From assembly GCA_937930535.1 (NCBI GenBank), contig CALGKJ010000057.1, positions 1 through 37,212 on the forward strand: a stretch of DNA of 37,212 nt. Direction: 5' to 3'. Shown one piece after another: positions 2,408 through 19,985 of this stretch; position 1 is the stretch's first letter, and every line of letters starts with the position of its first letter. The DNA is from an uncultured Clostridia bacterium. Lineage in GTDB: Bacteria; Bacillota; Clostridia; Lutisporales; Lutisporaceae. The notes under the pieces were generated by a model. The model made no database searches, was not told the DNA's origin, and was given only the letters and a program-made list of their open reading frames with translations. The position numbers were made by a program, and so were the translations under genes.

Positions 2408-4375
2408 TTAATTAAAAAACCCTGCTTCCTTCATCTCGTAAATGGTCTTCTTTACAGCATCTATAACATAATCCACATCCTCTTTGGAATGCTCTGTTGA
2501 TAAGAAACAGTTACGCCCTTCCCATATATAGATACCTTTTTCCAGTAAACCATAATAGAAAATTTCTTTTTCTAAATTCACGTTAAACCTGAATAAAGAG
2601 CCAAACTGATTAATATGTACCCCTACCTTCTCGCTGTCAAAGAACTGATTTAATTCATTTACAAATTCAGTAGTTTTCTGATTTAAAGCATCATAAATGT
2701 TATTTTTGTTTTCCTTAATATATTGCAGCACTGAATTTGTTGCTGCCATAGTCATAGGATGGTGACAGAAGGTTCCTGCTACAAAGGTTCTCTTGTCTTC
2801 ACAAGGAGGTACAGAATCATCTCCAAAGTTCCACATTCCTCCGTCTATACTGTCTAAATACTTTCTCTTACCAGCCAGCACACCTATTGGCATACCCCCG
2901 CCGATAACCTTTCCGTATGTGACAATATCTGCTTCCACGCCGAAGTATTCCTGTGCCCCGCCGCTGGCAATTCGGAAACCTGTTATGATTTCATCAAAAA
3001 TTAAGGCAATGTCATTTTCCTGTGTAACCTTTCTTAATTTTTTAAGAAATTCTGCCGGCTGTACATCCGGTCTTCTGCTCTGAACAGGCTCAGTTATAAC
3101 GGCTGCAATAATATCACTATGTTCCTCAATGTATTTTAAAGAAGCTTCTGAATCATAATCTAATAAGAGTAAATCTCTTACTGCATTATCCGTGATTCCA
3201 GGTGCTACGGAAATAGTTGCATTATCTGGATCAGCCGAATAGGTTGGTATTCCTAGTAAGCCATCATAAGTTCCATGGAAAGCACCTTTAAAGCATACGA
3301 CCTTATTTTTCCTTGTAACAGCTCTTGCTACTCTTACTGCAAACATATCTGCTTCAGTTCCTGTATTGCAGAAGAATACTCTTTCAACTCCTGTCAAATC
3401 GGAAATATGCTTTGCTACCTGACCTGTAAGTCTTCCCATAGGTCCAAGGGGCATTCCTTTTTCAACCTCGCATCTTAATGCCTCTCTGACAAATTCAGGG
3501 CTGTGTCCAAACAACAGAACGCCAAACCCCATTGTAAGGTCAATCATTTTATTTCCATCCACATCCACAATCTTAGAGCCTTTTGCTTCTTCTGCAATAA
3601 TCTGATACAGCATTTCTTTATATAAAGGTCTGAAGCCTGCGGAGTTTCTGTTGCTTGCATAAACACTTCTGTATTTTTGTGTTCTATCCTTAGAGCTCTG
3701 TGTTAATGAATTTACACGCTTCTCAATATTTTTAATGTATTTTAACTGAAGCTCCTCTATTTTATCTTCTTTTCCAAGCTCCAGCTTGCGGTATGGCTTG
3801 TAATACTCCTCGGATTTGGTCGAAACTGCCTTATTGCCTTTGTCCGATTCTTTTTGTTGCTTTGGTTTTGCTGCCTTATTCTTTACTGTGGCTGCACCAG
3901 CCATTACTTTCAATATTTCATTTTGTTTTGTGATAATTTCATACTGGCTGTTAAATACCTTAAGCAGTATATTAGCATCCAGTTTACCATTATTGTTTAA
4001 CGAAATGTCCGCTGTAGTATTTACTTCAGTATCTATTTCATCCGACAGTAAATCAACTTCGTAGGTTTCACTGTCTGCTTCTTCCTCTGCTGTTTCTTCC
4101 TCCATAGATTCCACAACACCATTATCTGCTATGTATTCTGCAATTAAGCGTAAAGTATTCAGTGTTGTAAAAAATACATCCAATGGAATTTCTGTCTTAT
4201 ACTTTGAAGCAAGCTGCTTTGCCAGTGTCAGAAGCAGAATGGAGTCCAGTCCATAGGAAATAAGTTTTTTGTCTATATCCATCGCTTCTTTTTCCATGCT
4301 GGATATCATATGAATAATTTCTTTTAGTTCTTCTATAACTTTCAAAACTCTTGTTTCATCTACCTCTGTTTTCAT
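2408..4375 (-). CDS. ACP-aminotransferase (beta-amination) protein of the assembly line
   Basis: The protein has 655 residues. Residues 1-90 are a carrier domain with the phosphopantetheine site YGLDSILL near residue 44. A coiled, lysine- and glutamine-rich linker (about 120-200) follows. The rest is a class III PLP aminotransferase of the glutamate-1-semialdehyde aminomutase type: NTGTEADMFAVRVAR near 343, IFDEIITGF, and the PLP-binding lysine in TYGKVIGGGMP near 486. ACP-linked aminotransferases of this kind convert a beta-ketoacyl thioester to a beta-amino acyl thioester in iturin/mycosubtilin-type and microginin-type pathways. Here the enzyme should act on the product of the preceding KS-AT protein, which lacks its own carrier domain. 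The start at 4375 has GGGAGG upstream; a longer in-frame start would overlap that site. The gene comes 40 nt after the KS-AT gene. Confidence 0.92.
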   Translation of the reverse strand: MKTEVDETRVLKVIEELKEIIHMISSMEKEAMDIDKKLISYGLDSILLLTLAKQLASKYKTEIPLDVFFTTLNTLRLIAEYIADNGVVESMEEETAEEEADSETYEVDLLSDEIDTEVNTTADISLNNNGKLDANILLKVFNSQYEIITKQNEILKVMAGAATVKNKAAKPKQQKESDKGNKAVSTKSEEYYKPYRKLELGKEDKIEELQLKYIKNIEKRVNSLTQSSKDRTQKYRSVYASNRNSAGFRPLYKEMLYQIIAEEAKGSKIVDVDGNKMIDLTMGFGVLLFGHSPEFVREALRCEVEKGMPLGPMGRLTGQVAKHISDLTGVERVFFCNTGTEADMFAVRVARAVTRKNKVVCFKGAFHGTYDGLLGIPTYSADPDNATISVAPGITDNAVRDLLLLDYDSEASLKYIEEHSDIIAAVITEPVQSRRPDVQPAEFLKKLRKVTQENDIALIFDEIITGFRIASGGAQEYFGVEADIVTYGKVIGGGMPIGVLAGKRKYLDSIDGGMWNFGDDSVPPCEDKRTFVAGTFCHHPMTMAATNSVLQYIKENKNNIYDALNQKTTEFVNELNQFFDSEKVGVHINQFGSLFRFNVNLEKEIFYYGLLEKGIYIWEGRNCFLSTEHSKEDVDYVIDAVKKTIYEMKEAGFFN

Positions 4376-4415
4376 AAGTAATGTTCCTCCCATTATTCAT
4401 CTATACTCTTGATTT

Positions 4416-7277
4416 TTATCTGAGCATGTCTTCAAGAATTTTTTTCTGTATCAACAACTGCTCATTCTGTTTCTTTAATAACTGCTCCATACAAGCCAAG
4501 CTTCCGTCTGCTGCTTTTGTTTCGCTTTCAGGGATCTTTTCTGTGGTTTTTTCCTTCCACAAGGTCTTTCTGTCAAAAGGATAATTAGGTAAAACAATTT
4601 TCTTTCTATTGTAATTTTCATAAAAGCTATTCCAATTCAGCTTTATACCCTTGAGATATAATTGCTTTAAGGATTCTAAAAGCTGCTTATAATCCCCTAT
4701 TCCCTTTCTAAGGGAAGGAACAAAAACTGCATTTTCATTTTGAACACACTGTCCAGCTAAGCCGCATAAGGTTGCATTTCCGCCGATTTCAATAAATGTT
4801 GTTACGCCTAACTTATCTGCTTCCTGCATTGCATTCATAAAATGAACCGTATTCTCAAGATGTTCCATCCAGTAAGCCTTATTTTCAAAAGTACCCTTTT
4901 CTTCAACTTTTCCTGTAACAGTTGAAATAACCTTGACTGCTGCTTTGTTGCAGATAATATTATCCAAGCTGTTTCCATATATTTCTGTATATTCTTTCAT
5001 TGCAACGGAATGATATGGATATAAAATCCCAAGATCATTAACAAACACTCTGGTCTTTTTATGCAGTACACTGATTACCGCATCCACTTCCTCACTTAGC
5101 CCTGAAACTGTAATGTTTTTAGGTGCATTTACTGCTGCAATGGATACATTTTTACATCCGCTTTCCAAAATAGCTGCCCTCATGGTTGCTTCATCTACTA
5201 GAACGCCTGCCATTTTTCCATTTGGCTTAACACTTGCCATCAGTCTGCTTCTCATTGCCATCATCTTGGTAGCATCTTCGAAGCTCAGCATTCCGATATA
5301 GCATGAGGCCGCATACTCTCCGACACTGTGCCCGATAACATAATCTGGTCTAATGCCTAATGAATCCCAGACTTTGGTTAAAGAATATTCCAAGGAAAAG
5401 ATTATGGGCTGTGAATAAAGAGCATCCGTTAACCGTTCTTCATCCTCTCCAAATAGAGTATCCTTAACGGAAATCTCCAATAGTTCCTCAAATCTGGCAT
5501 TACACAAATCAAAGGTTTCTCTAAACTCTTTGGATTTTTCATAAAATTCTCTGGCTGCATCTTTATAAATAGAGCCTTGCCCTGTAAACAAGTATGCTAT
5601 TTTTCTCTTTTTATTTTCAGCTTTTCCCATGTAGAATTTTTCTGCTTCCTCATTTTTCAGTGCATTATCTATTTCCTTTATAATCTGCTCTTTGCTGTTT
5701 CCAACTACTGCAAACCGGTATTCGTTTTTATCCCTTGTAATGTTGGTTGAGTATGCAATGTCACTGAGCCTTTCATCGGATACGATAATATAGTCCCTGG
5801 TTTGAGAAACCGCATTTGATAGTACGTTTTTGTTCTTTGCAGATATAGTCAACATGCTTTCTGGCATGTCTGCCTTTTCTTGCTGCTGTTCTTCCGCCGC
5901 TTCTTCTGCTTCCTCCAGTATTAAGTGAACTAACGTTCCACTGATTCCAAAGGAGCTGATACCGGCTCTTCTCTTTTTTCCTTTGCTATCCCATTCTGTC
6001 AGCTTGTTTACTACTTGAACTTTTTCCCAATCTATATTGGGGTTTGGGTTCTTAAAGTGAATGCTTGGGGGAAGCTTTTTATGTTTTAGGGCAAGCAGTA
6101 CTTTTATCGTACTTGCTATTCCTGCGGCAGCTTCCAGATGTCCTATATTGGATTTTACTGCACCAACCCTAATTGGCTCTTTTCTGTTTTTGAATACTCC
6201 GCATATTGCCTGTGCCTCGATAAAGTCACCAAGAGTGGTTCCTGTTCCATGAGCTTCAACATAATCAACATCTTCTACGCCCAGCTCTGCCTGTTTTAAG
6301 GCTTCTGCAATGACTCTTTGTTCAGCCAGCCCATTTGGTGCGTAAAATCCGTTGGATTTTCCATCCTGCCCCATATAGATTCCTCTTATTAATGCCTCAA
6401 TGCTGTTTTTGTCTCTTTTGGCATCCTTTAATCTTTTTAGTATAACTATTCCGCAGCCTTCTCCTCTTCCGAAACCGTCTGCAGATGCGTCAAAGGTTTT
6501 GCAGCGTCCGTCCGGTGACAGTGCATTAAACTGTGACAGTCCTATATATGGCTCTGGACTCAGTATGAGATTTACGCCTCCCACAATAGCCAAATCACAC
6601 TGCCCGTTTCTGAGACTATCTACTGCCATGTTCATCGCCGCCAACGACGATGAACATGCAGTGCTCAAACATGCTGCTGGTCCTTTAAAATCATAGAAAT
6701 AGGAGAGTCTGCCTGCTGCTGAGTGAGAACATACCCCAACCAGTGAATATGGTTCGATATCATTGACATTGCCCGAAATCATTTCTTTGCTGACGTAGTC
6801 TACAGCATCTATGCCTACAAATACTCCTGTTTTGCTTCCCCTTAGCTGTTCGATATCAAGTCCGGCATTTTCCAGGGCTTCCCAGCTTACCTCCAGTAAA
6901 AGCTTTTGCTGAGGATCTACAGATACTCCCTCTAGTGCAGATATTTCAAAGTGTATGTTATCAAACTTCTTAATATCTGCATCTAAAAAGGAACCATATG
7001 GTGTGCTCATTTTTCCTTTGCCTTGTTCCCCCTCACTAAAGTAGGAGTCTGCTGAAAATCTATCAGGCTTTATTTCTGTAACAGCATCAAAGCCCTGAGA
7101 CAGCTTATCCCAGAATAGTTGTGAGTTATTTGCGCCCCCTGGAAATCTGCAATTGTAGCCTATAACTGCAATTTCCCTGTTTTCTTTTGCTTTTTTTAGT
7201 TCCAAGTCCAGCTCTTTGATTTTGTCAGCAGCCTTTTTCAAGGCTGCTTTATATTTGCTTTCATCGAATGTATTCAT
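4416..7277 (-). CDS. type I PKS, ketosynthase-acyltransferase (no own ACP)
   Basis: The protein has 953 residues. An N-terminal coiled-coil docking segment (residues 5-35, lysine- and leucine-rich) precedes a KS with the cysteine in LSTACSSSL (about 206) and histidines in EAHGTGT and SNIGHLEAAAG. An AT follows: LFTGQGS near 563 and the serine in GHSVGEYAAS near 652. The protein ends in a glutamine-rich coiled coil with no carrier, so the ACP must come from the next protein. Some positions differ from the family norm. The AT specificity motif is YPYH rather than HAFH (malonyl) or YASH (methylmalonyl). In the KS, GDPIEA reads GDFIEA and GTNAH reads GTLVH. This AT is the best candidate to take the unusual extender predicted from the upstream genes (inference). 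The ATG at 7277 has AGAGG 8 nt upstream; the preceding gene ends at 7293. Confidence 0.93.
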   Translation of the reverse strand: MNTFDESKYKAALKKAADKIKELDLELKKAKENREIAVIGYNCRFPGGANNSQLFWDKLSQGFDAVTEIKPDRFSADSYFSEGEQGKGKMSTPYGSFLDADIKKFDNIHFEISALEGVSVDPQQKLLLEVSWEALENAGLDIEQLRGSKTGVFVGIDAVDYVSKEMISGNVNDIEPYSLVGVCSHSAAGRLSYFYDFKGPAACLSTACSSSLAAMNMAVDSLRNGQCDLAIVGGVNLILSPEPYIGLSQFNALSPDGRCKTFDASADGFGRGEGCGIVILKRLKDAKRDKNSIEALIRGIYMGQDGKSNGFYAPNGLAEQRVIAEALKQAELGVEDVDYVEAHGTGTTLGDFIEAQAICGVFKNRKEPIRVGAVKSNIGHLEAAAGIASTIKVLLALKHKKLPPSIHFKNPNPNIDWEKVQVVNKLTEWDSKGKKRRAGISSFGISGTLVHLILEEAEEAAEEQQQEKADMPESMLTISAKNKNVLSNAVSQTRDYIIVSDERLSDIAYSTNITRDKNEYRFAVVGNSKEQIIKEIDNALKNEEAEKFYMGKAENKKRKIAYLFTGQGSIYKDAAREFYEKSKEFRETFDLCNARFEELLEISVKDTLFGEDEERLTDALYSQPIIFSLEYSLTKVWDSLGIRPDYVIGHSVGEYAASCYIGMLSFEDATKMMAMRSRLMASVKPNGKMAGVLVDEATMRAAILESGCKNVSIAAVNAPKNITVSGLSEEVDAVISVLHKKTRVFVNDLGILYPYHSVAMKEYTEIYGNSLDNIICNKAAVKVISTVTGKVEEKGTFENKAYWMEHLENTVHFMNAMQEADKLGVTTFIEIGGNATLCGLAGQCVQNENAVFVPSLRKGIGDYKQLLESLKQLYLKGIKLNWNSFYENYNRKKIVLPNYPFDRKTLWKEKTTEKIPESETKAADGSLACMEQLLKKQNEQLLIQKKILEDMLR

Positions 7278-7292
7278 ACTTGACACCTCTAA

Positions 7293-10200
7293 CTATAACG
7301 TTAATGTATCTATTTCAGATAACAAGTCATCTATGCTTTCTGATTGCTCAGCTTCTTCTTCCTTTTCTTCTATGTTTGCATCTTCTATAACAAGAACTTC
7401 ATCTAGCAGGTATTCTGACAGCTTAACAATAGTAGGGTAGTTGAAGAATACGGATACATTAATATCAATGCTTAAAAGCTTATTAATTGCGGTACGCATG
7501 GAGAATATCATCAAGGAGTCTGCGCCCTGCACTTGGAAGGCTTCATCTACTGATAGTAATTGTCCCTTTTCAAATCCCATTATTTTTCCGCATATACCTT
7601 GTAATTTTTCAATCAACAATTCTTCTCTTTCTTCTCTGGATAAGCTCTTGAGTGTTTCTAATACAGTATTGTCTTTATCATCCTGTTCTGTATCTGATTT
7701 TGTGTCCTTTTCTGCTACAAGCTTGGATAAGAATTCTTTCTTTCCTGCTCCATTTTCCAAGGAACTTCCCAAAACATTCCAATCAACATCAGCAATCAGC
7801 AGATTTTCATATGGTTGATCCATGAAGTCTTCAATAATCTTCTGACCCTGTTCTTTTCCGAAGGTTTTTAAGCCCATTCTTTCCATTGTGTTTGATACAG
7901 AATCCTTGCCTGCTGCCATTCCGCTTTCGCTCCATGGTCCCCAACAGAAGGTATAGCCTGGAAGCTTGTTCATGTTCATATAAACTGCAAAGGCATTTTG
8001 GAAATAGTTTGCAGATGCATAATTAGCTTGTCCCATATTTCCTACCATACTGGTAATTGAGGAAAGCATCATAAAGAAATCTAATGCTTCTTTCTCAACT
8101 GTATTATAAAGATTTACAGTTCCGGCTACCTTTGGACTCATTACCTTTTCAAAATCATTCCAGTCAAGGTGAATCAGCATTTTGTCATTTAGAACCCCTG
8201 CTGTATGCACGATACCTCTGATTTGAGGCATTGAAGCTTTCATTTCATCCATTGCTGCTTTTAAGCTTTCATAATCACATACATCTGCATAAGCAATCTT
8301 TATTTGAACACCTGCTTCTGTAAACTTCTGAATAGCTTCCTTAGCTTTTTGTCCTGGTTCTCTTCTGCTCATTAGTATAAGGTTTTTAGCACCTGATTTT
8401 ACAAGCTGTTCTGCATAGATAAGACCTAATGCACCAGTTCCGCCGGTAATCAGGTAGGAAGCATCTTCTTTCAGCAGTATTTTCTTTTTCTTATCCAAGC
8501 CTTTTTTCAAGTAGTCTCCATGAGAAACTAATCTTCCTGCATAACGCTTGGTTCCTCTTACGCAAATTTCCTGTACGCTGTTTCCTAATACTTCATAGAT
8601 AAAATCTGTATTTTCATAGAAAGCTGTTTCATCAGCATCAACGATTCCGCCAAATATTTCTGGATATTCTATGCTTACTACCTTTGCCAATCCCCATACC
8701 ATGGAGCCTGACAGGTTAAGCTTCTTTACATCTCCAAGCTTTTGAACATCCTTTGTTACAATTTTAATTTTGCTTCCCAGTGTATATCCTTCTTCGTTCA
8801 TTACCTGTACCATATAGAGCAATGCTTTTACAGATGCATAATTCATCTGCTCTCCAGCTTCTGCAGGAACACTGTCTTTTGTAGTACAATAAATGATATT
8901 TAAGTCCCTCTTTATGCCATCCTTGCATATTTCACCAAGAAGCTTGGACCAGTCTTCTTTGTTTTCCTGATTGATAATATATGCGTTTTCATTTTCTTTT
9001 TGGTATTCATTTCCGGCTGCTACAGATACTGCTGTAATGTCAAGTGCTTTCAGCTTTTCCCTTAAAGTATCTGCTGCTGCTTTCTCATCTGCGTAAAGAA
9101 TGTATTTCTTATTTGCTGGAAGCTCTTCTAATTTTATGATGTCTTCTGTTTGTATCCAGTCTGTGTGATAATATAATTTATTCAGGTTTCTCATTTCTCT
9201 TAACAAGCTGTTGCTGTCTGTGATTTTAGCCATCAGGTTATCAATTCTCATTAAGACTTCACCTTTTTCGTTATATACTATAACGTCCGCATAGGTGATG
9301 TCATTTTTCACACTGGATTTTGAGTAGCACCATAATTGGTCGGATTCTCTATAATTAAAGGTCAGCTTTTCAAGATAGTATGGAATAACCGTCTTGTTTC
9401 CTTCCTCTTCATTAACATTGGTACGTTCTTTTAACTTTTCCAAAACCAGTGCTATTCCTGTTTGGAATATGGAGTCAATGGTTCCTGGGTAAAGAACATA
9501 ATCTTTAAAGTATGGAACGGTTTTTAATGGCTCTACTACGCAAACACACTCATTGTCTCCGTAGCTGATGCGCTTGATTCTTCGGAAACCGTCTCCCAGC
9601 ATAAAGCCGGATTTGGTCATGAAATAATAGATACTGTCTTCGATATCCTCTTTGTAGGAAAGCCCCTTGTATGCATCAATATCTGCATGCATATCTGTAT
9701 ATTTATACTCATCCTGAATATAAACATCTCCTTTTGAGTGCAGAAGCCATTTATCATTTCTGGAGCTGTAGTCTCTACTTACAATACTGAATTTTGAATC
9801 GTCTCCGCCTTTTTCAATGCAGATCTGAACCTGTCTTTGTTCGTCTTCCTTGGCTGCCAATGGAGCTCTGAATTCTACCTTGCTTAATACACAGCTCTTA
9901 GCATTTCCAATTTCTTTAACAGCAGAAAGCATCATTGCTGTATGGGCTGCTGCCGGTGAAATTGCTGCACCGAAAATAACATGCTCTCTCATAAAGTATG
10001 GTTCCAGTGCAGTAAATTTACTTTGGAATACTACAGCATCACTCATAAATGGAAGGTCTATTCTTTGTCCAAGAATATTATGATAATCCTCAGCATTTAT
10101 GTTTTCTGTTTCTCTGTCATATTTCAGCTCCATCCAGTATTTATTCTTGTCATATGGATAGTTAGGAAGCTTTACCTTATTCCATTCTGTTTTTCCTGCA

Positions 10201-13200
10201 AAGGTTATTTTATTCCAATTTACATTTACGCCTGCTGCATAAAGTAATGCAATTTCTTCTGCAAGCTGTGCTTTATCTGCTTTATTGATGTTCAAGCTTG
10301 ATGCAATTACTCTTTCTTCTTCAAATATCAATTTGCAGAGGGCTGCTAATACTCTGTTAGAGCCTACTTCCAGCAGTAAGTAGTTTTCTTTCTTATCTAT
10401 GCTTGTAACTGCACCGTAGAAATCAACTTTTTCTCTGATATGTGTAGTCCAGTATTCGCTGTCAAGTATCTGTCCGTTTTCCAGTTCCTTTGCATAAAGG
10501 GCAGAAACAAATCTTCTCTGTGCTTCATTATACTTCACTTCTTTTGCTATCATATTGAAGTCTTCCAATGCTGGATCCATAAGCATAGAGTGGAATGCAT
10601 GAGATACTTTTAATTCCTTTACACGCATACCTTCACTAACAGCCTTGGCTGCTACTTTTTCCACATCATCAGCATGTCCAGAAATTACACAGGTTTCTTT
10701 TGCATTTCGTGCTGCAATACATACTGTTTCTTCATAGCCGCTAAGAAGCTTTTGCACCTTCTCTTCGTCTGCAAAAACTGTAGCCATCTTGCCTCTTCCT
10801 GGTGCCATATCCATAAGTCTTCCTCTGATTGAAACCAATTTTGCAGCATCTTCAAGAGTCATAATGCCTGCTGCAACAGCCGCTGCATATTCTCCAATGC
10901 TGTGTCCCATAACTATCTCCGGCTTCACGCCATAGCTCTCCCACATTTTGTATAGAGCATACTCAATTGCAAAGATTAATGGCTGCGCATAAACAGTTTT
11001 TTCAATCACCTGTTCGTCTGCATTTTTTCCGTAAATCATATCATTGATGGATTTCAACAAATATGGTTTAAATAATTTATCACAAGTATCAAAGGCTTGT
11101 TTAAATACCTCATTGGTTTCATATAGTAATCTACCCATGCCGACATACTGTGAGCCCTGTCCTGTAAACATAAATGCAACTTTTCTGTCTTTCTGCATCA
11201 TATTTGCTTTATCAGTGTTTACAACCACACCTTCTGCTGAGCCATCCTTTAGATAGCTTTCCATTCTATCTAGTATCATATCTCTGCTGCTGCCGCAAAC
11301 TACAAATCTGTAATCCAAATCCGCTCTTCCGGTATTGGCTGTATAAATGATGTTTTCTAATTCGCCTTCAGCAGCTTCCTTGATTAATGCATGGTATTTT
11401 TCAACCAGTGCTTTCAAGGACTTTTCACTCTTTGCTGAAATCTTAAGTATATAGTCTATTCCATCTTGGATCTTTGCTTCGCTCTTAGGCAAGTTTTCTG
11501 CTTTGTATTCTTCAATAATTACATGTGCATTTGAACCGCCGAATCCAAATCCATTAACTGCTGCTGTTCTTAAGCCATCTTTTTTCTCCCATGGTGTATG
11601 TTTGCTAACAACTTCCGCATTTGAGTCTTCCCAGTTTATTAATGGGTTTGGTGTATGGAAATGAAGATTCGCAGGGATCATATTATTTTTCATGGATAAT
11701 AAAACCTTAGTAATGGATGCAACACCTGCTGATGCTTCTAAATGTCCCATATTGGATTTTACTGATCCTATCTTTAATAGCTCGTCCTTGCTTCTGCCTC
11801 TTCCGTAGGTTGCAGCAACTGCATCTACTTCGATTGGGTCTCCAAGCTTTGTGCCTGTTCCATGCATTTCTATATAATCCACATCTAAAGGATTCAAATG
11901 TGCCTCCATGCATGTTTGACGAATCAGCTTTGCCTGTGCTTCTCCGTTTGGTGCTGTAAGACCGTTGCTCTTGCCATCCTGATTAATTCCGCTTCCTCTG
12001 ATTACACCAAGGATTTCGTCTTTATCCCTGATAGCCTCTGATAATCTCTTAAGAATAAGAACGCCGCCGCCTTCTCCTCTTCCGTATCCGTTTGCAGATG
12101 CGTCAAAGGCTTTACTATGTCCATCTACAGAGGTCGCCTGTAGTTTTGAGAAACCAACGTTGGTAGTAGGAGATTCCATTAAGTTAATTCCTGCTACAAC
12201 CTGCATATCTGCTTGTCCTGCCAGCATGGCTGTACATGCCAGATGTAAAGCTGTAAGTGAGGATGAACATGCTGTATCTACTGCAAGACAAGGTCCTTCA
12301 AATCCGAAGGTATAAGATACTCTTCCGCATGCAGTACTCATACAAGTTCCTGTAAGGGCATATGCGCCTATTCTTGATAATTCTCCCGAATACAATTGTG
12401 CTAAAGTATATTCATTATTGCATATTCCCACATATACACCAGTATTGCTTCCGCTGTATTTGGTAATATCCATATTTGCATTTTCAAAAGCTTCCCAAGT
12501 AAGCTCCAGAAGCATTCTCTGCTGAGGATCAAGTGCCGCTGCTTCCTTTGGTGAAATATTGAAAAATCTTGCATCGAATTCATCAATGTCAATATTTAAA
12601 AATCCACCTTTTCTACAATACATTTTTCCAGGAGCTTCCTTATTCTCGTCATAATATTTTTCAAGCTCCCATCTGCCTTCTGGAATATCGCATACACCAT
12701 CTATTCCCTGCATAAGCATATTCCAGTACTCATCTATGCTGTTTGCCCCACCTGGGAAACGGCAGCTCATTCCTACAATAGCGATTTTATCCTTTGCTTG
12801 CTCCACATTCATACGCTCTGAGCTCTTTTCTTTTTCTGTTGTACCAACCATTGAATATATGTGTTCAGACAGTTTATTGACGTTGAAATGGCTGAAAATA
12901 TCCGCAGCACCAATGCTTACATTGAGATCATCATTTAGTTTTTCAACAAATGGCGGAATATTAATGGATACTATACCATATTCAGAAAAAGGTACATCGT
13001 AATCTGATACTTTTATGTTGAACTTTTCTTCCATGTATTTTACAATCTTCATTAAGACTGTACGTTTTGTATGTTTCTCACTATTATTTGATTTCTTTTC
13101 AGCTATAGGTTGTTTTTGACTAACATTATTTATTTTGTTTAGGAGTTCTTGATATGCCCCGGAATTATACTGTTCGGTTAATCCGCGTCTAAATGCTTTT

Positions 13201-14807
13201 CCACTGTTTGTTTTAGGAATATTATCAACAGGAAGCACCTCACTAATGGTTAATCCAATTTTTTCAAAAATTATAGATGTTATTTTGTTTTTAAACTCAA
13301 TAAATTCCTGCATATCATTTTGATTATTTATGTCAATATCAGTTTTTATAAAAGCTATAACCTTTTCATTCTCATTGCCGTGCTTTGTTCCATTGCATAC
13401 TGCACACTGCTGATATTTTGTATCCTGCAAGCTGCTGTTAATCATAGCTTCTATAAGCTGGCATGATATTTTCTTGCCATTGGCTACAACAAGTTCCTTT
13501 TCTCTTCCAATAATGAGCAGGTTGCCTTCTCTTACAAATCCTACATCACCTGTACACAACCATCCATCTCTCAAAACTTTTTGGGTTGCTTCTTCGTCCT
13601 GATAGTATCCGCTTGTAATACAAGGACCGCTTACACAAACTTGTCCAAGATACCCATCGGGAAGCTCCTGAAAATCATCATTCCTAATGCTGAGCTCTAT
13701 TGTTTCCAGTATAGTTCCCATTTCCAAAAATGAGTTGTCTACTTTTTCAGTATCTGCTACTTCCTCACAGTAGACTTTATCGCCATTTACAAGCTTTTCA
13801 TTTGTAATTTTGATTGTTCTTGCTTTCTTTCCAGCTCTATTGGCAGATACCATAATAGTAGCTTCTGTTAATCCGTACAACGGATACACCTTATCTACAG
13901 TAAATCCATATTTGCTTACTGCATCACAGAACTCTTTATACAGTGCATAATTTACCTGTTCTCCGCCGATAAACATGCTTTTTACACATGACATATCCCA
14001 ATTGAAGTTTTTCTCCGAGTTATTATAAACACTTAGAAAATGCTTTAATGCAAATGGCAGTGAACCTATTCTGGTTGCACCAAATTCATGAATTGCCTCC
14101 GCCCATATTAAAGGTTGATTCATATACAGCTTGCTGGAAATGAAACAATGCTCTGCGCCTGACATTAGCGGAACAAGATGGAATGTTATTAGTCCATAAC
14201 AATGTGTTAATGGTGACCATGATATAAATCTGTCATTTTCATCAATGTCATAATGCTTAGTAAAGCCATATACGTTGGCTGCCACATTGGATTTTTTTAT
14301 GATTACACCATGTGGTGTGCCTGTTGTTCCAGAAGAATACAGAACATATAAGATATCATCTGGTGAAGACTCATATTCAGCCTCCATATTATAGGGACAG
14401 CTTAAAATATCGTTATAGTAATTATTTAAATCTACTATTTTTACGTTACTCTGCGTATCCATATTATCACTTATAATTATTGGATTGTCTGATTTTGATA
14501 AAACATGAGATAAAAGACTATCTCCAGCATTATTTTTAGTTGCATCTATGGGTACGGCAATAAAGCCGCCTATTGCACAGGCCCAGAAAGAATAAAAGAA
14601 TAATTCCAGGTTTTCACATCTAATAATAACCTCTGCCTTTTTTCCCACTCCTAGATTTTTTAGTATCTCAGAAACATAAAAGCTCCTATTCCATAATTCT
14701 TTGTATGAAATAAACTTTTTTTCGTCTTTTGAAAGTACAATAGTTATGCCTTTATTTGTCTTGCCCAGCTCATTAAGTACTTTCAACACATCGTCCGTTT
14801 TTCTCAT
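7293..14807 (-). CDS. loading and first extension PKS: AMP-ligase-ACP-KS-AT-DH-KR-ACP
   Basis: This 2504-residue megasynthase starts with an acyl-AMP ligase: SSGTTGTPHGV near 160, YGLTEA near 309, CTGDVG near 417 and the lysine in PKTNSGKA near 532. The first ACP has its serine near 608 in YGIVSI. The KS follows (cysteine in DTACSSSL near 846, MHGTGT near 980, SNMGHLEAS near 1018). The AT has GHSIGEYAAA near 1301 and a malonyl-type HAFH near 1402. The DH has an intact HVIFGAAISP (HxxxGxxxxP) near 1607 and DSIFQ near 1777. The KR has GGTGALG near 2121, a B-type-like LND, and SSITS/QANYASAN near 2244-2262. There is no ER. The last ACP has GADSL near 2427, and an acidic tail probably docks to the next KS. 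The predicted action is to activate a carboxylic acid, extend it with malonyl and leave an enoyl thioester. The ATG has AGGAGG 8 nt upstream. Confidence 0.95.
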   Translation of the reverse strand: MRKTDDVLKVLNELGKTNKGITIVLSKDEKKFISYKELWNRSFYVSEILKNLGVGKKAEVIIRCENLELFFYSFWACAIGGFIAVPIDATKNNAGDSLLSHVLSKSDNPIIISDNMDTQSNVKIVDLNNYYNDILSCPYNMEAEYESSPDDILYVLYSSGTTGTPHGVIIKKSNVAANVYGFTKHYDIDENDRFISWSPLTHCYGLITFHLVPLMSGAEHCFISSKLYMNQPLIWAEAIHEFGATRIGSLPFALKHFLSVYNNSEKNFNWDMSCVKSMFIGGEQVNYALYKEFCDAVSKYGFTVDKVYPLYGLTEATIMVSANRAGKKARTIKITNEKLVNGDKVYCEEVADTEKVDNSFLEMGTILETIELSIRNDDFQELPDGYLGQVCVSGPCITSGYYQDEEATQKVLRDGWLCTGDVGFVREGNLLIIGREKELVVANGKKISCQLIEAMINSSLQDTKYQQCAVCNGTKHGNENEKVIAFIKTDIDINNQNDMQEFIEFKNKITSIIFEKIGLTISEVLPVDNIPKTNSGKAFRRGLTEQYNSGAYQELLNKINNVSQKQPIAEKKSNNSEKHTKRTVLMKIVKYMEEKFNIKVSDYDVPFSEYGIVSINIPPFVEKLNDDLNVSIGAADIFSHFNVNKLSEHIYSMVGTTEKEKSSERMNVEQAKDKIAIVGMSCRFPGGANSIDEYWNMLMQGIDGVCDIPEGRWELEKYYDENKEAPGKMYCRKGGFLNIDIDEFDARFFNISPKEAAALDPQQRMLLELTWEAFENANMDITKYSGSNTGVYVGICNNEYTLAQLYSGELSRIGAYALTGTCMSTACGRVSYTFGFEGPCLAVDTACSSSLTALHLACTAMLAGQADMQVVAGINLMESPTTNVGFSKLQATSVDGHSKAFDASANGYGRGEGGGVLILKRLSEAIRDKDEILGVIRGSGINQDGKSNGLTAPNGEAQAKLIRQTCMEAHLNPLDVDYIEMHGTGTKLGDPIEVDAVAATYGRGRSKDELLKIGSVKSNMGHLEASAGVASITKVLLSMKNNMIPANLHFHTPNPLINWEDSNAEVVSKHTPWEKKDGLRTAAVNGFGFGGSNAHVIIEEYKAENLPKSEAKIQDGIDYILKISAKSEKSLKALVEKYHALIKEAAEGELENIIYTANTGRADLDYRFVVCGSSRDMILDRMESYLKDGSAEGVVVNTDKANMMQKDRKVAFMFTGQGSQYVGMGRLLYETNEVFKQAFDTCDKLFKPYLLKSINDMIYGKNADEQVIEKTVYAQPLIFAIEYALYKMWESYGVKPEIVMGHSIGEYAAAVAAGIMTLEDAAKLVSIRGRLMDMAPGRGKMATVFADEEKVQKLLSGYEETVCIAARNAKETCVISGHADDVEKVAAKAVSEGMRVKELKVSHAFHSMLMDPALEDFNMIAKEVKYNEAQRRFVSALYAKELENGQILDSEYWTTHIREKVDFYGAVTSIDKKENYLLLEVGSNRVLAALCKLIFEEERVIASSLNINKADKAQLAEEIALLYAAGVNVNWNKITFAGKTEWNKVKLPNYPYDKNKYWMELKYDRETENINAEDYHNILGQRIDLPFMSDAVVFQSKFTALEPYFMREHVIFGAAISPAAAHTAMMLSAVKEIGNAKSCVLSKVEFRAPLAAKEDEQRQVQICIEKGGDDSKFSIVSRDYSSRNDKWLLHSKGDVYIQDEYKYTDMHADIDAYKGLSYKEDIEDSIYYFMTKSGFMLGDGFRRIKRISYGDNECVCVVEPLKTVPYFKDYVLYPGTIDSIFQTGIALVLEKLKERTNVNEEEGNKTVIPYYLEKLTFNYRESDQLWCYSKSSVKNDITYADVIVYNEKGEVLMRIDNLMAKITDSNSLLREMRNLNKLYYHTDWIQTEDIIKLEELPANKKYILYADEKAAADTLREKLKALDITAVSVAAGNEYQKENENAYIINQENKEDWSKLLGEICKDGIKRDLNIIYCTTKDSVPAEAGEQMNYASVKALLYMVQVMNEEGYTLGSKIKIVTKDVQKLGDVKKLNLSGSMVWGLAKVVSIEYPEIFGGIVDADETAFYENTDFIYEVLGNSVQEICVRGTKRYAGRLVSHGDYLKKGLDKKKKILLKEDASYLITGGTGALGLIYAEQLVKSGAKNLILMSRREPGQKAKEAIQKFTEAGVQIKIAYADVCDYESLKAAMDEMKASMPQIRGIVHTAGVLNDKMLIHLDWNDFEKVMSPKVAGTVNLYNTVEKEALDFFMMLSSITSMVGNMGQANYASANYFQNAFAVYMNMNKLPGYTFCWGPWSESGMAAGKDSVSNTMERMGLKTFGKEQGQKIIEDFMDQPYENLLIADVDWNVLGSSLENGAGKKEFLSKLVAEKDTKSDTEQDDKDNTVLETLKSLSREEREELLIEKLQGICGKIMGFEKGQLLSVDEAFQVQGADSLMIFSMRTAINKLLSIDINVSVFFNYPTIVKLSEYLLDEVLVIEDANIEEKEEEAEQSESIDDLLSEIDTLTL

Positions 14808-14897: not shown

Positions 14898-15878
14898 CTA
14901 CGCTTCTGCTATTTTCTCCAGTTCATTAAGTACAGCCTCAATATTATCCACCATAGAATAATCTGCATAGTCGAATATGGCTGCATTTTTATCAGTATTT
15001 ACAGCAACTATTATTTCTGCATTCTTAATTCCAACCATATGCTGGCTTGCACCTGATACACCGAAGCTTACATAAATATGAGGAGATATACTTTTACCTG
15101 ACTGACCAACCTGTCTTGCTTTGTCAATAAATCCTTCTTCAACAACCGCTCTGGTTCCAACTACGCCGGCACCGCATTTTTCAGCAATGCTGTATATTCT
15201 TTCAAGAGTTTCTTTATTTTTAACTCCTCTTCCGATACAGAAAACTTTTTTATAACTATTAATATCAATATCTTTCTTTACTTCTTTTTCTATACGCTCT
15301 AATACTTCCCAAGAATCTGAACGCTTCTCTTCTATTCCATTATATGTAAATTCCTCTATGGTTCCTTGTTCGCGCCTATCATACTCTTTTTTTATAAATA
15401 CATCCTTTTTTACAGTTCCCATCATAATGCTGCAATTAATACATTTGATCTTCGCAATAACTGAATCATTGATGGCAGCTCTTGAAAAATACAGTTCTCC
15501 AGTTTCATCAAAATCGATATCGATACAATCCGCTGTAAGTCCTGCTTCAAATCTGGTAGATAAGATGGCTGCTGTCATTTTTCCAATTACCGTGGCTGGA
15601 ACCAATATGATTTTAGGTATAATCTGCTTAACCATATCTGCAATAATTTCTACAAAATATGGTGTATCAAATCGCTGGTCCTGTCTGCAAAAAACTATAT
15701 TATCTGCGCCATATCTAAATAAATTATCAGCTTTACCATCATCCCAGTGTCCTACACATAGAGCTGATACCTTACTATCGCATTTATCTCCAAGACTTCT
15801 TGCCTTTGTTATGATCTGTAGTACATGTTCGCCATCATATTCCTGTGAATCACATATAACAACTATATCCTTCCCCAT
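14898..15878 (-). CDS. etfA: electron transfer flavoprotein alpha subunit
   Basis: This 326-residue protein is a normal-length EtfA. The N-terminal half is the ETF nucleotide-binding fold. The C-terminal half is the FAD domain, with RQVGQSGKSISPHIYVSFG near 260, GVSGASQHMVGIKNA, INxD-like AVNTDKNAAIF and ADYSMVDN. The protein pairs with the EtfB encoded just upstream and carries electrons from an acyl-CoA-dehydrogenase-type flavoenzyme. The nearest such enzyme is the one at 16719-17858 in the same operon. Its presence inside a PKS cluster suggests a dedicated electron outlet for that enzyme in an organism without oxygen as acceptor (inference). It lies 60 nt after etfB and 90 nt before the large PKS gene. 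A GGAAGGATG-type ribosome binding site precedes the ATG. Confidence 0.95.
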   Translation of the reverse strand: MGKDIVVICDSQEYDGEHVLQIITKARSLGDKCDSKVSALCVGHWDDGKADNLFRYGADNIVFCRQDQRFDTPYFVEIIADMVKQIIPKIILVPATVIGKMTAAILSTRFEAGLTADCIDIDFDETGELYFSRAAINDSVIAKIKCINCSIMMGTVKKDVFIKKEYDRREQGTIEEFTYNGIEEKRSDSWEVLERIEKEVKKDIDINSYKKVFCIGRGVKNKETLERIYSIAEKCGAGVVGTRAVVEEGFIDKARQVGQSGKSISPHIYVSFGVSGASQHMVGIKNAEIIVAVNTDKNAAIFDYADYSMVDNIEAVLNELEKIAEA

Positions 15879-15938: not shown

Positions 15939-16706
15939 CTATGAATTGTGTGCTTTACCGGTAATTATGTTATATAATAATTCCGCTTTTTCTTCTGCAT
16001 TACCCTCAATATATGATTTTGGCTTTTTCACTATTTCCTTTTGAACATTAAGAACTTTTGTTTTTGAACCATCCAAGCCGCATTTACTTGCATCAACTTC
16101 CAGATCAGCGGCATTCCACACAATAATATCTTTTTTCTTAGCTCTTTTTAATGCCAGCAGACTTATTTGAGGCTGTGTAACTACAAAATCATAAAATGCA
16201 ACCACTGCCGGAGTTTTCAGTTTTCCTATTATAATTTCTGTTTCTTTTACCTGCTTCACCTTAATTGCAGAATCTTGTGCATCTAAAATTTCTGCTGCAT
16301 CCGGCAGACAATAATAATTCAGCCGTTCACCAATTCCATATACTACTTGTCCCGTTTCACCATCAATGGTTCGTCTGCCGCATACTATCATGTCAACATT
16401 TCCGATTTTTTCAATTGCTTTTGCTAATATGTATGACGTAGCAACTGTATCCGAGCCTCTGAACATATCATCATTTAGAATAATTGACTCATCTGCTCCA
16501 GCTGCAATAGCCTTTTGTAATAAGGCTTTTGAACTCATCGGCCCCATACATAAACAAATAATTTTGCAGTCAATGAGTTTCTTTAATTCTATGGTTTTTT
16601 CGAATGCATATAAATCGTAAGGATTCATCAAAAAATCTTCAACACGTGATTCATTGGGATAAATCAATTCCGACTTTATAGGTTTAATACATATTACTAT
16701 CTTCAT
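15939..16706 (-). CDS. etfB: electron transfer flavoprotein beta subunit
   Basis: This 255-residue protein has typical EtfB features: the start MKIVICIKPI, NPYDLYAFEKTIELK near 28, MGP, AAGADESIIL near 70, and CGRRTIDGETGQV near 110, which is the conserved nucleotide-contact region. I took the ATG at 16706, preceded by AAGGGG at 5 nt; an in-frame GTG at 16712 falls inside that ribosome binding site. It starts 12 nt after the dehydrogenase stop codon, so the two are tightly linked in translation. Together with EtfA it forms the soluble heterodimer that reoxidises an acyl-dehydrogenase flavin. Whether it serves only the cluster's dehydrogenase or also general metabolism cannot be told from sequence. 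Confidence 0.95.
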   Translation of the reverse strand: MKIVICIKPIKSELIYPNESRVEDFLMNPYDLYAFEKTIELKKLIDCKIICLCMGPMSSKALLQKAIAAGADESIILNDDMFRGSDTVATSYILAKAIEKIGNVDMIVCGRRTIDGETGQVVYGIGERLNYYCLPDAAEILDAQDSAIKVKQVKETEIIIGKLKTPAVVAFYDFVVTQPQISLLALKRAKKKDIIVWNAADLEVDASKCGLDGSKTKVLNVQKEIVKKPKSYIEGNAEEKAELLYNIITGKAHNS

Positions 16707-16718
16707 AGGCACCCCTTA

Positions 16719-17858
16719 TCATATGCATCTTGCATTTGCCATATTATAGATGGTATTCTTTTGCATTTCGTTAGTACCTGAGTAGATGCTGCATGCCAGA
16801 GCATCTCTTAGCTCTCTTTCCATATCGTATTCTTTTGTATATCCGTATGCTCCCAAAATCTGCATTGCATCTCTACAGGCTTTTATATAGTTTTCGCTTA
16901 CAAAAAGCTTAAAAATAGAAGTTTCCAAATAAGCGGATTTTTTATTATCCTTTAACCAAGCAATCTTATAAAGCATCAATCTTGCCATTTCAATGCCTAC
17001 TTCCATTTCTGCAATTTTATGGGATACCGACTGATTCACACCAATTGGTTTTCCAAACTGTTTTCTTCCATTGGCTTGTTTTATGCTTTCTTCCATGACT
17101 CTCTGCATTACGCCAATATGAGGAGCAAATTCAAAACATCTTTCCCACTCAATGGCTCCTGTCATAATGTTGCCTCCACTGTTTAACTTGCCTATCACAT
17201 TTTCCTTTGGTACTCTTACATTATTTAAAATAAGTTCGCTTGTGGGACATGCACCAAGTCCCATTTTTTCAATATCTTTTCCTGTACTTACTCCTTCAAA
17301 GCTTCGCTCAACTACAAAGGCAGTCACCTTCTTATCAGGAGCTTCCTTTGTAACAGCGAAAACAATAAAAATATCTGCAATAGGACCATTGGAAATAAAC
17401 ATTTTGGTTCCATTCAGCACATAATAATCTCCATCCTCAACTGCATTGGTAGTCATTGAAAACGCATCGGAGCCTGCTTCAGCCTCTGTAATAGCAATAG
17501 CACCGATTTTTTTCCCTTCAACCATTACAGGAAGATATTTATCTTTAAGTTCCTTTGAACCATATAAATAGATAATATTTTGAGATACCCATATATGATT
17601 ATTAATTACAAATATAAAACCATTGTTTTTACATGCGTATCCAAGGCTTTCAAATGCAATAGCCGCAGTCTCATAGCTTTCTCCAAGACCGCCATATTCT
17701 TCACCTATAGTTATTCCCAGCAAGCCAAAATCACTGACTTTTTTCCACATGTCCATAGAAAATTCTTCGTAGTACCTGCTGTCATTGAGATTTTCTCTTG
17801 CAAAATCAATGATTTCCTGTCTGAATTCCTTTTGCTCTTTTGTTAATGAAAACTCCAT
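16719..17858 (-). CDS. acyl-CoA-dehydrogenase-like enzyme, probable FkbI/ZmaE-type carrier-bound oxidase
   Basis: The protein has 379 residues, the usual family length. Family marks include EEYGGLGES, AITEAEAGSDAFSM, MFISNG, GRKQFGKPIG and the C-terminal QILGAYGYTKEYDMERELRD. The catalytic glutamate of medium- and short-chain enzymes sits in a YEGT motif; here it reads IYSGTNE, so that base is a serine. A glutamate in IEWER (near 240) lines up with the alternative base of isovaleryl-CoA dehydrogenase. Neighbours are a free ACP and a 3-hydroxyacyl-CoA-dehydrogenase-like enzyme upstream and EtfBA downstream. In the FkbG-K and ZmaD-N pathways this trio oxidises a carrier-bound glyceryl or seryl unit to a substituted malonyl-ACP. 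The role is inferred from that context. A beta-oxidation-type acyl dehydrogenase is the alternative. Confidence 0.85.
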   Translation of the reverse strand: MEFSLTKEQKEFRQEIIDFARENLNDSRYYEEFSMDMWKKVSDFGLLGITIGEEYGGLGESYETAAIAFESLGYACKNNGFIFVINNHIWVSQNIIYLYGSKELKDKYLPVMVEGKKIGAIAITEAEAGSDAFSMTTNAVEDGDYYVLNGTKMFISNGPIADIFIVFAVTKEAPDKKVTAFVVERSFEGVSTGKDIEKMGLGACPTSELILNNVRVPKENVIGKLNSGGNIMTGAIEWERCFEFAPHIGVMQRVMEESIKQANGRKQFGKPIGVNQSVSHKIAEMEVGIEMARLMLYKIAWLKDNKKSAYLETSIFKLFVSENYIKACRDAMQILGAYGYTKEYDMERELRDALACSIYSGTNEMQKNTIYNMANARCI

Positions 17859-17949
17859 TAATATTCCCTTCCTTCACAAACCAGCTTTACATAATCCGGT
17901 ATATTTCTTTCATAGGACATATCTGCCTCAAGAATAACTACATCGAAGC

Positions 17950-18183
17950 CTATACCAGTTTCTTTTCGATTAAGGCAGCAATGGAATTGATATCTTTAAA
18001 ATTGTCCAAATCTAATTCTGTATTATCGATTGTAATGTTAAATTCATTTTCAACAAAATTAACTAAGTTCATTGCAAACAATGAATTTACCAGCCCTTTT
18101 TCAAAAATATTATCTGTATCCTCGATTTCATTTACATTAACAAACTTTGATAAAAACACTTTTATTTTTTCTTTTACGTTCAT
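17950..18183 (-). CDS. free-standing acyl carrier protein, FkbJ/ZmaD-like
   Basis: This is a 77-residue carrier protein. The phosphopantetheine serine lies in GLVNSLFAMNLVNF, with asparagine in place of the usual aspartate before it. A VNSLFAMxLVxFVExEF sequence and the following TELDLDNF are what I recall of carriers that hold alkoxy-, hydroxy- or aminomalonyl units (FkbJ, ZmaD, ZmaH, AsmN), rather than of fatty-acid or PKS-module ACPs. The ATG at 18183 has TAAGGG 8 nt upstream; the GTG at 18192 lies inside that site. It sits 20 nt after the FkbK-like dehydrogenase gene and 91 nt before the acyl-CoA-dehydrogenase-like gene. It probably holds the C3 unit while both enzymes act on it. Confidence 0.9.
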   Translation of the reverse strand: MNVKEKIKVFLSKFVNVNEIEDTDNIFEKGLVNSLFAMNLVNFVENEFNITIDNTELDLDNFKDINSIAALIEKKLV

Positions 18184-18203
18184 ATTATTCACCCTTACTT
18201 TCT

Positions 18204-19037
18204 TTAATAATTATAAAAGCCTTTACCGGCTTTTCTGCCTGTAAATCCTGCATATACCATTTGCTTCATAAGCGGACATGCTCTGTATTTTGAATCTTCA
18301 TAGTGGTCATATAGTACCTTTAAAGAATCCAACACTGTATCTACACCAATCAAATCGGCTGTTTCAAGAGGTCCCATCTTATGTCCAAATGCTTTTTTAA
18401 AAACGTTATCAATCTGCTCTGCCGTAGCAACTCCTTCATATACCAATGCAGCCGCCTCATTCATAAACAAATGAGATAAACGATTGGATACAAAGCCTGC
18501 GCTGTCATTTACAACTTCAATTTCAATTCCTGCGCCTTTCAGTAAACTTCGAATACTCTCGATTGTTTCCTTAGAAGTCTTGCAGCCCTTAATAACTTCT
18601 GCGAAATTTTTCATTGGTACAGGATTCATAAAATGTACTCCGATAACTTTATCCGCCCTGTTAGTATAGGAGCCGATAAGTGTGATAGGGATACATGAGG
18701 TATTTACCATATAAATACACTCTTCTTTGCAGACCTTCTCTAGATCTCTGTATACAGTTTCTTTAATTTTTATATCCTCGTTTACATTTTCAATAATAAA
18801 GTCCATGTCTTTTAATTCATCATACCCAGAAGTAACTTTTATATTGGAAATAATCCCCTCAACATCTATAGCTTTGTTAAACATACTGGCTATCTTTAGA
18901 CTTTTTTTAATGTCTTCTCTTGCGGTATCAAGTACCTTTGGGGCAATGTCGTATAAAACAACCTCCTGCCCATACTGTGCAAATCTCTGAGCTACCCCTT
19001 TGCCCATCACACCTGCACCGATTACTCCAATTTTCAT
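18204..19037 (-). CDS. 3-hydroxyacyl-CoA dehydrogenase family enzyme, FkbK/ZmaG-like
   Basis: This 277-residue NAD-binding protein begins with the Rossmann motif GVIGAGVMGKGVAQ. Family residues follow: NTSCIPITLIGSYT, the catalytic histidine in GVHFMNPVPMK (about 137), DSAGFVSNRL, FGHKMGPLETADLIGVD, and GRKAGKGFYNY at the C-terminus. The segment YEDSKYRACPLMKQMV near 250 resembles my memory of FkbK/ZmaG proteins, which oxidise carrier-bound glyceryl or seryl groups to the aldehyde, but primary 3-hydroxybutyryl-CoA dehydrogenases share most of the rest. It is the first gene of the operon, with AAGGAGG 7 nt before the ATG. The adjacent special ACP favours a role in extender-unit supply over fatty-acid oxidation. 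No FkbH-type loader or serine-activating enzyme is visible in the window. Confidence 0.88.
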   Translation of the reverse strand: MKIGVIGAGVMGKGVAQRFAQYGQEVVLYDIAPKVLDTAREDIKKSLKIASMFNKAIDVEGIISNIKVTSGYDELKDMDFIIENVNEDIKIKETVYRDLEKVCKEECIYMVNTSCIPITLIGSYTNRADKVIGVHFMNPVPMKNFAEVIKGCKTSKETIESIRSLLKGAGIEIEVVNDSAGFVSNRLSHLFMNEAAALVYEGVATAEQIDNVFKKAFGHKMGPLETADLIGVDTVLDSLKVLYDHYEDSKYRACPLMKQMVYAGFTGRKAGKGFYNY

Positions 19038-19104: not shown

Positions 19105-19985
19105 AACACACAACCTATTTATTACCAACGCAGGCATCTTGATAACTGAATCAATAAAACAACGTACCACTTCTCTATCTCTTTTACAGAGCTATAAAAA
19201 ACATTGTTTATAACCTCTGATTTCAACCATCCCCATAATCCTTCAATCAAATTCAATTTAGGACTGTAGGGTGGCAAAAATACAAAGTTAAAACGATTTC
19301 CATGTTCCTGTAAAAAAGGCTTAAGTAGCTTAGCGTGATGGATACGAGAATTATCTAGGATCATCGCAATTTTGCCTGTAGGATATAGCTTTAGGATGTT
19401 CTGCAAGAAGTTTAGAAACACTGCTGCATCATATTTTTCATTTTCCTCACAGTAAATATGACCTGTTTCATAATCTAGAACACCTAAAAGCTGTACTCCT
19501 TCATGCTTTCCATAAGTCGGTATAATTCTCTGTTGTCCTTTATGAAACCATGTTTTCTGTATAGCTTGATAATCACGAATCATGGATTCATCTTCAAACA
19601 AGATATGGTCAATATTTCCGTCAAGAAGGTTTTTTTAAAAGCTCAAAATCCTGCTTGAACTGTTCCTGTTTTTGAGGGTCAGCCTTGGCTAAAGTGTAAG
19701 TAGGTCTTGTAAAGCTAAGATCCATCCGGTATAGTACCTCAGCCATACCTCGGTGACTATACTGTACACCCCAAGTTTTTTTAACCCATTCCTGAACAAT
19801 ATTGATATACCAGTTCTTTCGATTTGGAAAGCCTACTTCATCAGGTGTTTTTGTTGTTATTATTAACGCTAATTCCGTTTCCTGCTCTGGTGTAAGAAAT
19901 CGTGGGGCACCTGAATTAGGCTTTGGGTTAAGTCCATCTAATCCACCATTATTATATTTTGAAATATAATAGATTTTAGGTTTAA
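19096..19985 (-). pseudogene. decayed IS630-family transposase
   Basis: Three reading-frame pieces join into one DDE transposase of the IS630 family. The N-terminal piece (about 19985 to 19623) carries GGLDGLNPKPNSGAPRFLTP. The middle piece (about 19622 to 19165) carries the acidic residues in FEDESMI, ILDNSRIHHAK and LNLIEGLWGWLKSEV. The C-terminal piece (to 19096) reads FIDSVIKMPALVINRLCVKL. The first break is in a run of seven A (minus strand), where dropping one A restores the frame; such runs can be programmed frameshift sites. The second break, near 19165, and the missing N-terminal DNA-binding region (a stop codon lies just upstream) show that the copy is dead. It lies immediately upstream of the biosynthetic operon. 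Confidence 0.85.

Follow-up and report, generated by a model that had tools for sequence, protein, structure and literature searches.

The window analysed here is one contig in its entirety (C57; 37,212 bp) and belongs to a draft genome of 4.69 Mb (G000; 252 contigs, 97.2% complete). A run of minus-strand genes extends from position 19037 to the left end of the contig, in the order hbd, ACP, dehydrogenase, etfB, etfA, PKS genes, aminotransferase, DUF6790 gene, and C-A gene. The hbd product (18204–19037) is of the 3-hydroxyacyl-CoA dehydrogenase family (Pfam 3HCDH_N/3HCDH), has a putative ZmaG/FkbK-like role, and shares 74% identity with the product of the gene adjoining fkbH in SIG287, one of two Paenibacillaceae MAGs (SIG286 and SIG287) that carry related clusters. 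Directly upstream of hbd, at the operon start, is a DDE_3 transposase fragment (19122–19601). Downstream is a free FkbJ/ZmaD-like ACP (17950–18192; Pfam PP-binding). Its serine lies in VNSLFA, and an alignment with three FkbH-operon ACPs places it among those that partner FkbH. It is followed by an fkbH stub (17858–17965) comprising the last ~35 codons of the gene; a tblastn match (64.5% over 31 aa, E = 2e-5) revealed the stub, and its frame and overlap were set against L042. The next gene (16719–17858) encodes a dehydrogenase of the acyl-ACP dehydrogenase superfamily (Pfam) that is nearest to prolyl-ACP dehydrogenases (best solved relative 4irn, 324 bits), is 80% identical to its SIG counterparts, and is partnered with an electron transfer flavoprotein (ETF), the beta and alpha subunits of which are encoded by etfB (15939–16712; Pfam ETF) and etfA (14898–15878; Pfam ETF and ETF_alpha).

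The first PKS gene (7293–14807) encodes a 2504-aa FAAL-ACP-KS-AT(malonyl)-DH-KR-ACP protein, as read from domain matches and motifs. The FAAL was called by an NCBIfam fatty acyl-AMP ligase match, the first ACP was read from the motif GIVS (no Pfam call), and the DH (HVIFGAAISP, DSIFQ), KR (GGTGALG, S/YASAN), and terminal ACP (GADSL) carry recognizable motifs. Module 2, assigned by the same means, is a KS-AT protein (4416–7286, 956 aa) with the acyltransferase motifs GHSVG, FVN, and YPYH. The following protein (2408–4393, 661 aa) joins an ACP to a class III aminotransferase whose PLP-lysine motif reads YGKVIGGG. It matches mycosubtilin MycA (6kfu) at 535 bits (next families: ≤184 bits); when split, the ACP contributes 34 bits and the aminotransferase 500 bits over the whole domain, and by this comparison the aminotransferase is of the MycA type. 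The DUF6790 gene (1901–2395; Pfam and comparison) adjoins the first C-A gene also in L040 (88% identity) and SIG286 (53% identity). The C-A gene itself (2–1876; domain matches and homology) encodes the first NRPS module, is cut by the contig end, and goes on in contig C151. From a reading of the sequence, the motifs of the DH, KR, both KS, both acyltransferases, ACPs, and aminotransferase are intact. An earlier note on this DNA gave coordinates and a domain order (AMP-ligase-ACP-KS-AT-DH-KR-ACP // KS-AT // ACP-aminotransferase // C-A) that hold when checked against domain matches and motifs; the DUF6790 gene between aminotransferase and C-A was omitted. Its predicted intermediates are also supported: an enoyl after module 1, a beta-ketoacyl after module 2, and a beta-amine formed by the MycA-type aminotransferase.

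SIG286 and SIG287 keep the order of the five genes for etfB, etfA, the first PKS, KS-AT, and ACP-aminotransferase (58–70% identity), and the hbd, ACP, and dehydrogenase products are 69–80% identical to those of the two MAGs. Because gene order is kept in both relatives, the architecture is not a product of chance. In SIG286 and SIG287, the operon (hbd-ACP-fkbH-dehydrogenase-etfB-etfA) lies directly before the PKS genes and contains a full fkbH between ACP and dehydrogenase. The SIG cluster is homologous throughout to that of the window, but differs by the full fkbH, the order of gene blocks, and a first PKS that lacks the FAAL domain. The SIG286 starter is perhaps an arylacetyl unit. On the SIG286 contig (L037, 12021–16628), the aminotransferase gene is followed by tightly packed discrete acyltransferase-like, phenylacetate-CoA-ligase-like (PaaK-like), and IorAB-like genes.

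At the fkbH site of the window, the TAATG overlap into the dehydrogenase start is the same as in the relatives, the stop codon of the free ACP falls inside the stub, and the break point lies in a short run rich in A that is compatible with the ends of both genes. The window encodes the dedicated ACP and the 3-hydroxyacyl dehydrogenase of an FkbH-type hydroxymalonyl-ACP operon, but not the FkbH that makes glyceryl-ACP. No O-methyltransferase was found among the window and C151 proteins scanned; a methoxymalonyl extender was therefore rejected in favor of hydroxymalonyl. The earlier note had proposed a hydroxy- or methoxymalonyl unit supplied by the same operon. The hydroxymalonyl operon type stands, whereas the methoxy variant does not, and supply from the same operon fails because of the loss of fkbH on this contig, which the note overlooked. 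With only ~35 codons left, the alpha-hydroxyl needs FkbH in trans, or it is not made.

One published account (PMC4207774) ties ACP-linked extenders to the absence of basic residues at the RXR site, which precedes the catalytic histidine. We compared 16 distinct acyltransferases with a readable motif, after dropping duplicates from overlapping loci (a 17th, in a 947-aa frame on C105, was unreadable). K or R was present at this site in 9/16 and neither in 7/16. Three of the seven are acyltransferase 2 of the window and its relatives, which reads FVN in 3/3 and is without the basic residues of CoA-using acyltransferases; three others have an ACP-linked setting or a ZmaA-type motif (C105, G081, C58), and G001:C243 (HVT) is the exception. 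Acyltransferase 1 has RVK or TVK in 3/3, and acyltransferase 3 (C151) has KAT. The FVN of acyltransferase 2 fits an ACP-linked extender, from which we infer its extender choice. The assignment leans also on elimination, because the GYSFG of ZmaA is absent (GHSVG in the window, GHSIG in the SIG relatives) and the score to CurL (212 bits) exceeds that to ZmaA (152 bits). GYSFG does occur on C58 of the same genome, in a KS-AT with ZmaA-like GYSFG/LCM (L029, 3150–4157).

The earlier note had also argued for a route that is independent of oxygen, and this logic gains support from the genome (97.2% complete), in which neither COX1 (0/1; 8/14 controls positive) nor bd oxidase (0/1; 10/14 controls positive) was detected. 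The apparent absence of both heme-copper and bd terminal oxidases makes an oxygenase route unlikely; the source bacterium is probably anaerobic. No oxygenase family was found among the window and C151 proteins scanned, and no monooxygenase was seen beside the aminotransferase. For a genome without terminal oxidases, it is very rich in assembly lines (129 AMP-binding matches and 60 KS-AT-query matches in 4.69 Mb).

We propose, with a probability of roughly 55%, that the cluster is built to make a 3-amino-2-hydroxy-4-enoyl lipopeptide unit by a route independent of oxygen, and that this line is complete in SIG286/287 and, in the window strain, either dependent on supply in trans or failing. The FAAL would load a fatty acid at the start of a hybrid PKS-NRPS lipopeptide line, module 1 would add malonyl, reduce, and dehydrate to give a 2-enoyl, and module 2 would add a hydroxymalonyl unit that the free ACP brings in. 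Next, the 2-hydroxy-3-oxo-4-enoyl thioester would be converted by the in-line MycA-type aminotransferase to the predicted 3-amino-2-hydroxy-4-enoyl product, to be passed on by the C domain. The alpha-oxygen would derive from a glycolytic three-carbon acid via FkbH, hbd, and the flavin dehydrogenase, the electrons of which would exit through the operon's own ETF, so that no O2 would be needed. The window strain would obtain glyceryl-ACP from another FkbH of the genome, or no longer make the unit. We regard the hydroxymalonyl reading as more likely than not for the cluster type, for which the chemistry of the earlier note is sound and best realised in SIG286/287; that the window strain itself still makes the 2-hydroxy unit has just short of an even chance. 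Microginins and bestatin-like peptidase inhibitors bind metal through their 3-amino-2-hydroxy acid.

The fragmentation of the draft into 252 contigs raises the question of whether the stub is an artefact that arose in assembly or binning from an operon that is in fact complete. This is improbable: only ~7–11 bases at the join could be shared sequence, which is shorter than usual assembly words, and no displaced copy of the missing gene was seen, since none of the four FkbH matches above the curated cut-off in the genome is close to the FkbH of the relatives. Two lie within large proteins (C105, C49) and two are stand-alone (C105, 50% identity to the relatives' FkbH; C230, 52.5%, the best of the four). 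The C230 gene forms a stand-alone dehydrogenase-FkbH pair (L026, 11724–14001), with no ACP match within the 20 kb examined (best E = 0.62). The C105 gene has as neighbors two FkbH-type ACPs, a ZmaF-like discrete acyltransferase, hbd, a dehydrogenase, and then a stand-alone A domain; motifs of the discrete acyltransferase in this zwittermicin-like set (L027, 14801–19814) are GYSLG, IGI, and GPFH. This set could lend FkbH to the window operon, although the lending itself is what we infer. Alternatively, the product of the strain is a plain 3-amino-4-enoyl unit: after the loss of fkbH, module 2 would take malonyl-CoA as in iturins, and the rest of the extender operon would be a relic. The stub speaks for this explanation, as does acyltransferase 2, whose motif is GHSVG instead of GYSFG and whose sequence is closer to CurL than to ZmaA; we nevertheless judge the explanation unlikely, because the hbd, ACP, dehydrogenase, and ETF genes keep open reading frames and are conserved, and because the FVN and YPYH of acyltransferase 2 are identical to those of the fkbH-bearing relatives.

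The dehydrogenase bears on a further alternative. FkbI is absent among its 60 best solved relatives, whereas the C105 dehydrogenase reaches FkbI at 165 bits; by these matches, the window enzyme, though of the right superfamily, probably lies outside the FkbI/ZmaE branch. At E ≤ 1e-110 it was found in 2/391 genomes of the class sample, its own and G081. The G081 enzyme (56% identity) is the nearest non-orthologous dehydrogenase with ETF, likewise with etfBA beside it, and its operon (L057, 5187–11189: dehydrogenase, etfB, etfA, hbd, stand-alone A domain, and ACP, with an adjoining discrete acyltransferase) resembles an aminomalonyl-ACP set equipped with an ETF of its own. The window ACP might accordingly be charged with serine in trans, through a stand-alone A domain such as that on C105, and aminomalonyl extension would yield a 2,3-diamino unit. 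We consider this very improbable, as the ACP of the window, unlike that of G081, belongs to the FkbH-partnered type, the relatives keep fkbH in place, and the operon is without a stand-alone A domain.

Several known systems share parts of the proposed hydroxymalonyl route. Iturin and mycosubtilin synthases (MycA, ItuA), as outlined in PMC4219810, have the FAAL start, PKS extension, and a MycA-type aminotransferase after an ACP, then NRPS modules, whereas the window has an extra DH-KR module, split proteins, and an upstream ACP-linked extender operon. The puwainaphycin (PuwB-E) and tychonamide/floridanemamide lines combine a FAAL or other starter, PKS, and aminotransferase to give a 3-amino-2-hydroxy acyl unit, and are described with a monooxygenase beside the aminotransferase (PMC4219810, PMC13252402), of which none was found in the window. 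With the hydroxymalonyl-ACP operons of zwittermicin and butyrolactol (zmaN, zmaD, zmaG, zmaE), the window shares hbd, the ACP, an acyl-ACP dehydrogenase, and the lack of an O-methyltransferase, and SIG286/287 share FkbH as well (PMC5355916, PMC6395733); it differs by the fkbH stub, by a dehydrogenase that seems to belong to another branch and has etfBA alongside, and by extension followed by amination. ETF genes within the operon are not part of the zwittermicin/butyrolactol sets as these are described. For butyrolactol, the labelling reported in PMC5355916 traces the hydroxymalonyl carbons to glycolysis; the genes there resemble zmaN, zmaD, zmaG, and zmaE, and an O-methyltransferase is absent. 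The literature searched, outside which most subscription journals lie, yielded no paper on hydroxymalonyl extension joined to an aminotransferase module. We tentatively suggest, at somewhat under even odds, that an anaerobe line joins hydroxymalonyl-ACP from an operon with its own ETF-linked dehydrogenase to an in-line aminotransferase as an oxygen-free counterpart of alpha-hydroxylation in the puwainaphycin/microginin lines, with an exchangeable starter (a FAAL-loaded fatty acid here, perhaps arylacetyl in SIG286/287) and, in the window strain, a glyceryl-loading FkbH borrowed from another cluster. A route that works by extender choice would function without oxygen and could move as a gene block, and the stub offers a clean natural test: fkbH is present in some of the homologous clusters and missing from another, whose genome has other FkbH genes.

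P0003 matched only the window's genome among 22 genomes of the order (E ≤ 1e-60), and no plasmid among 1303 records had a KS-AT homologue at ≥60% identity (best listed: 41.7%). The view of a portable cassette with different NRPS partners was rejected, the SIG286 contig having NRPS genes upstream of the operon. G024 (L040) was dropped as a third case of fkbH loss; it is without a KS-AT match too, so its lack of FkbH is uninformative.

The cluster appears to continue from C57 onto C151, a join that rests on homology. The A domain cut at the C57 end has its other half at the start of C151, and both L040 and a single 3581-aa SIG286 protein run across the join, at which ~5 residues are absent between the contigs. 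The first part of C151 encodes PCP-KS-AT-ACP-C-A-PCP-KS, and the second protein a degenerate acyltransferase, an ACP, C-A-PCP, and a terminal C-like domain. These are followed by a thioesterase, an MFS exporter, and an ABC ATPase gene known by its match to a SIG286 gene. The fourth PKS module is divided between two proteins, with the break after the KS (L031, 8843–9830; L059, 6602–12373). In both genomes the active-site serine of its acyltransferase is gone (GEGIAE, GTGITE), which points to a trans acyltransferase or a silent module.
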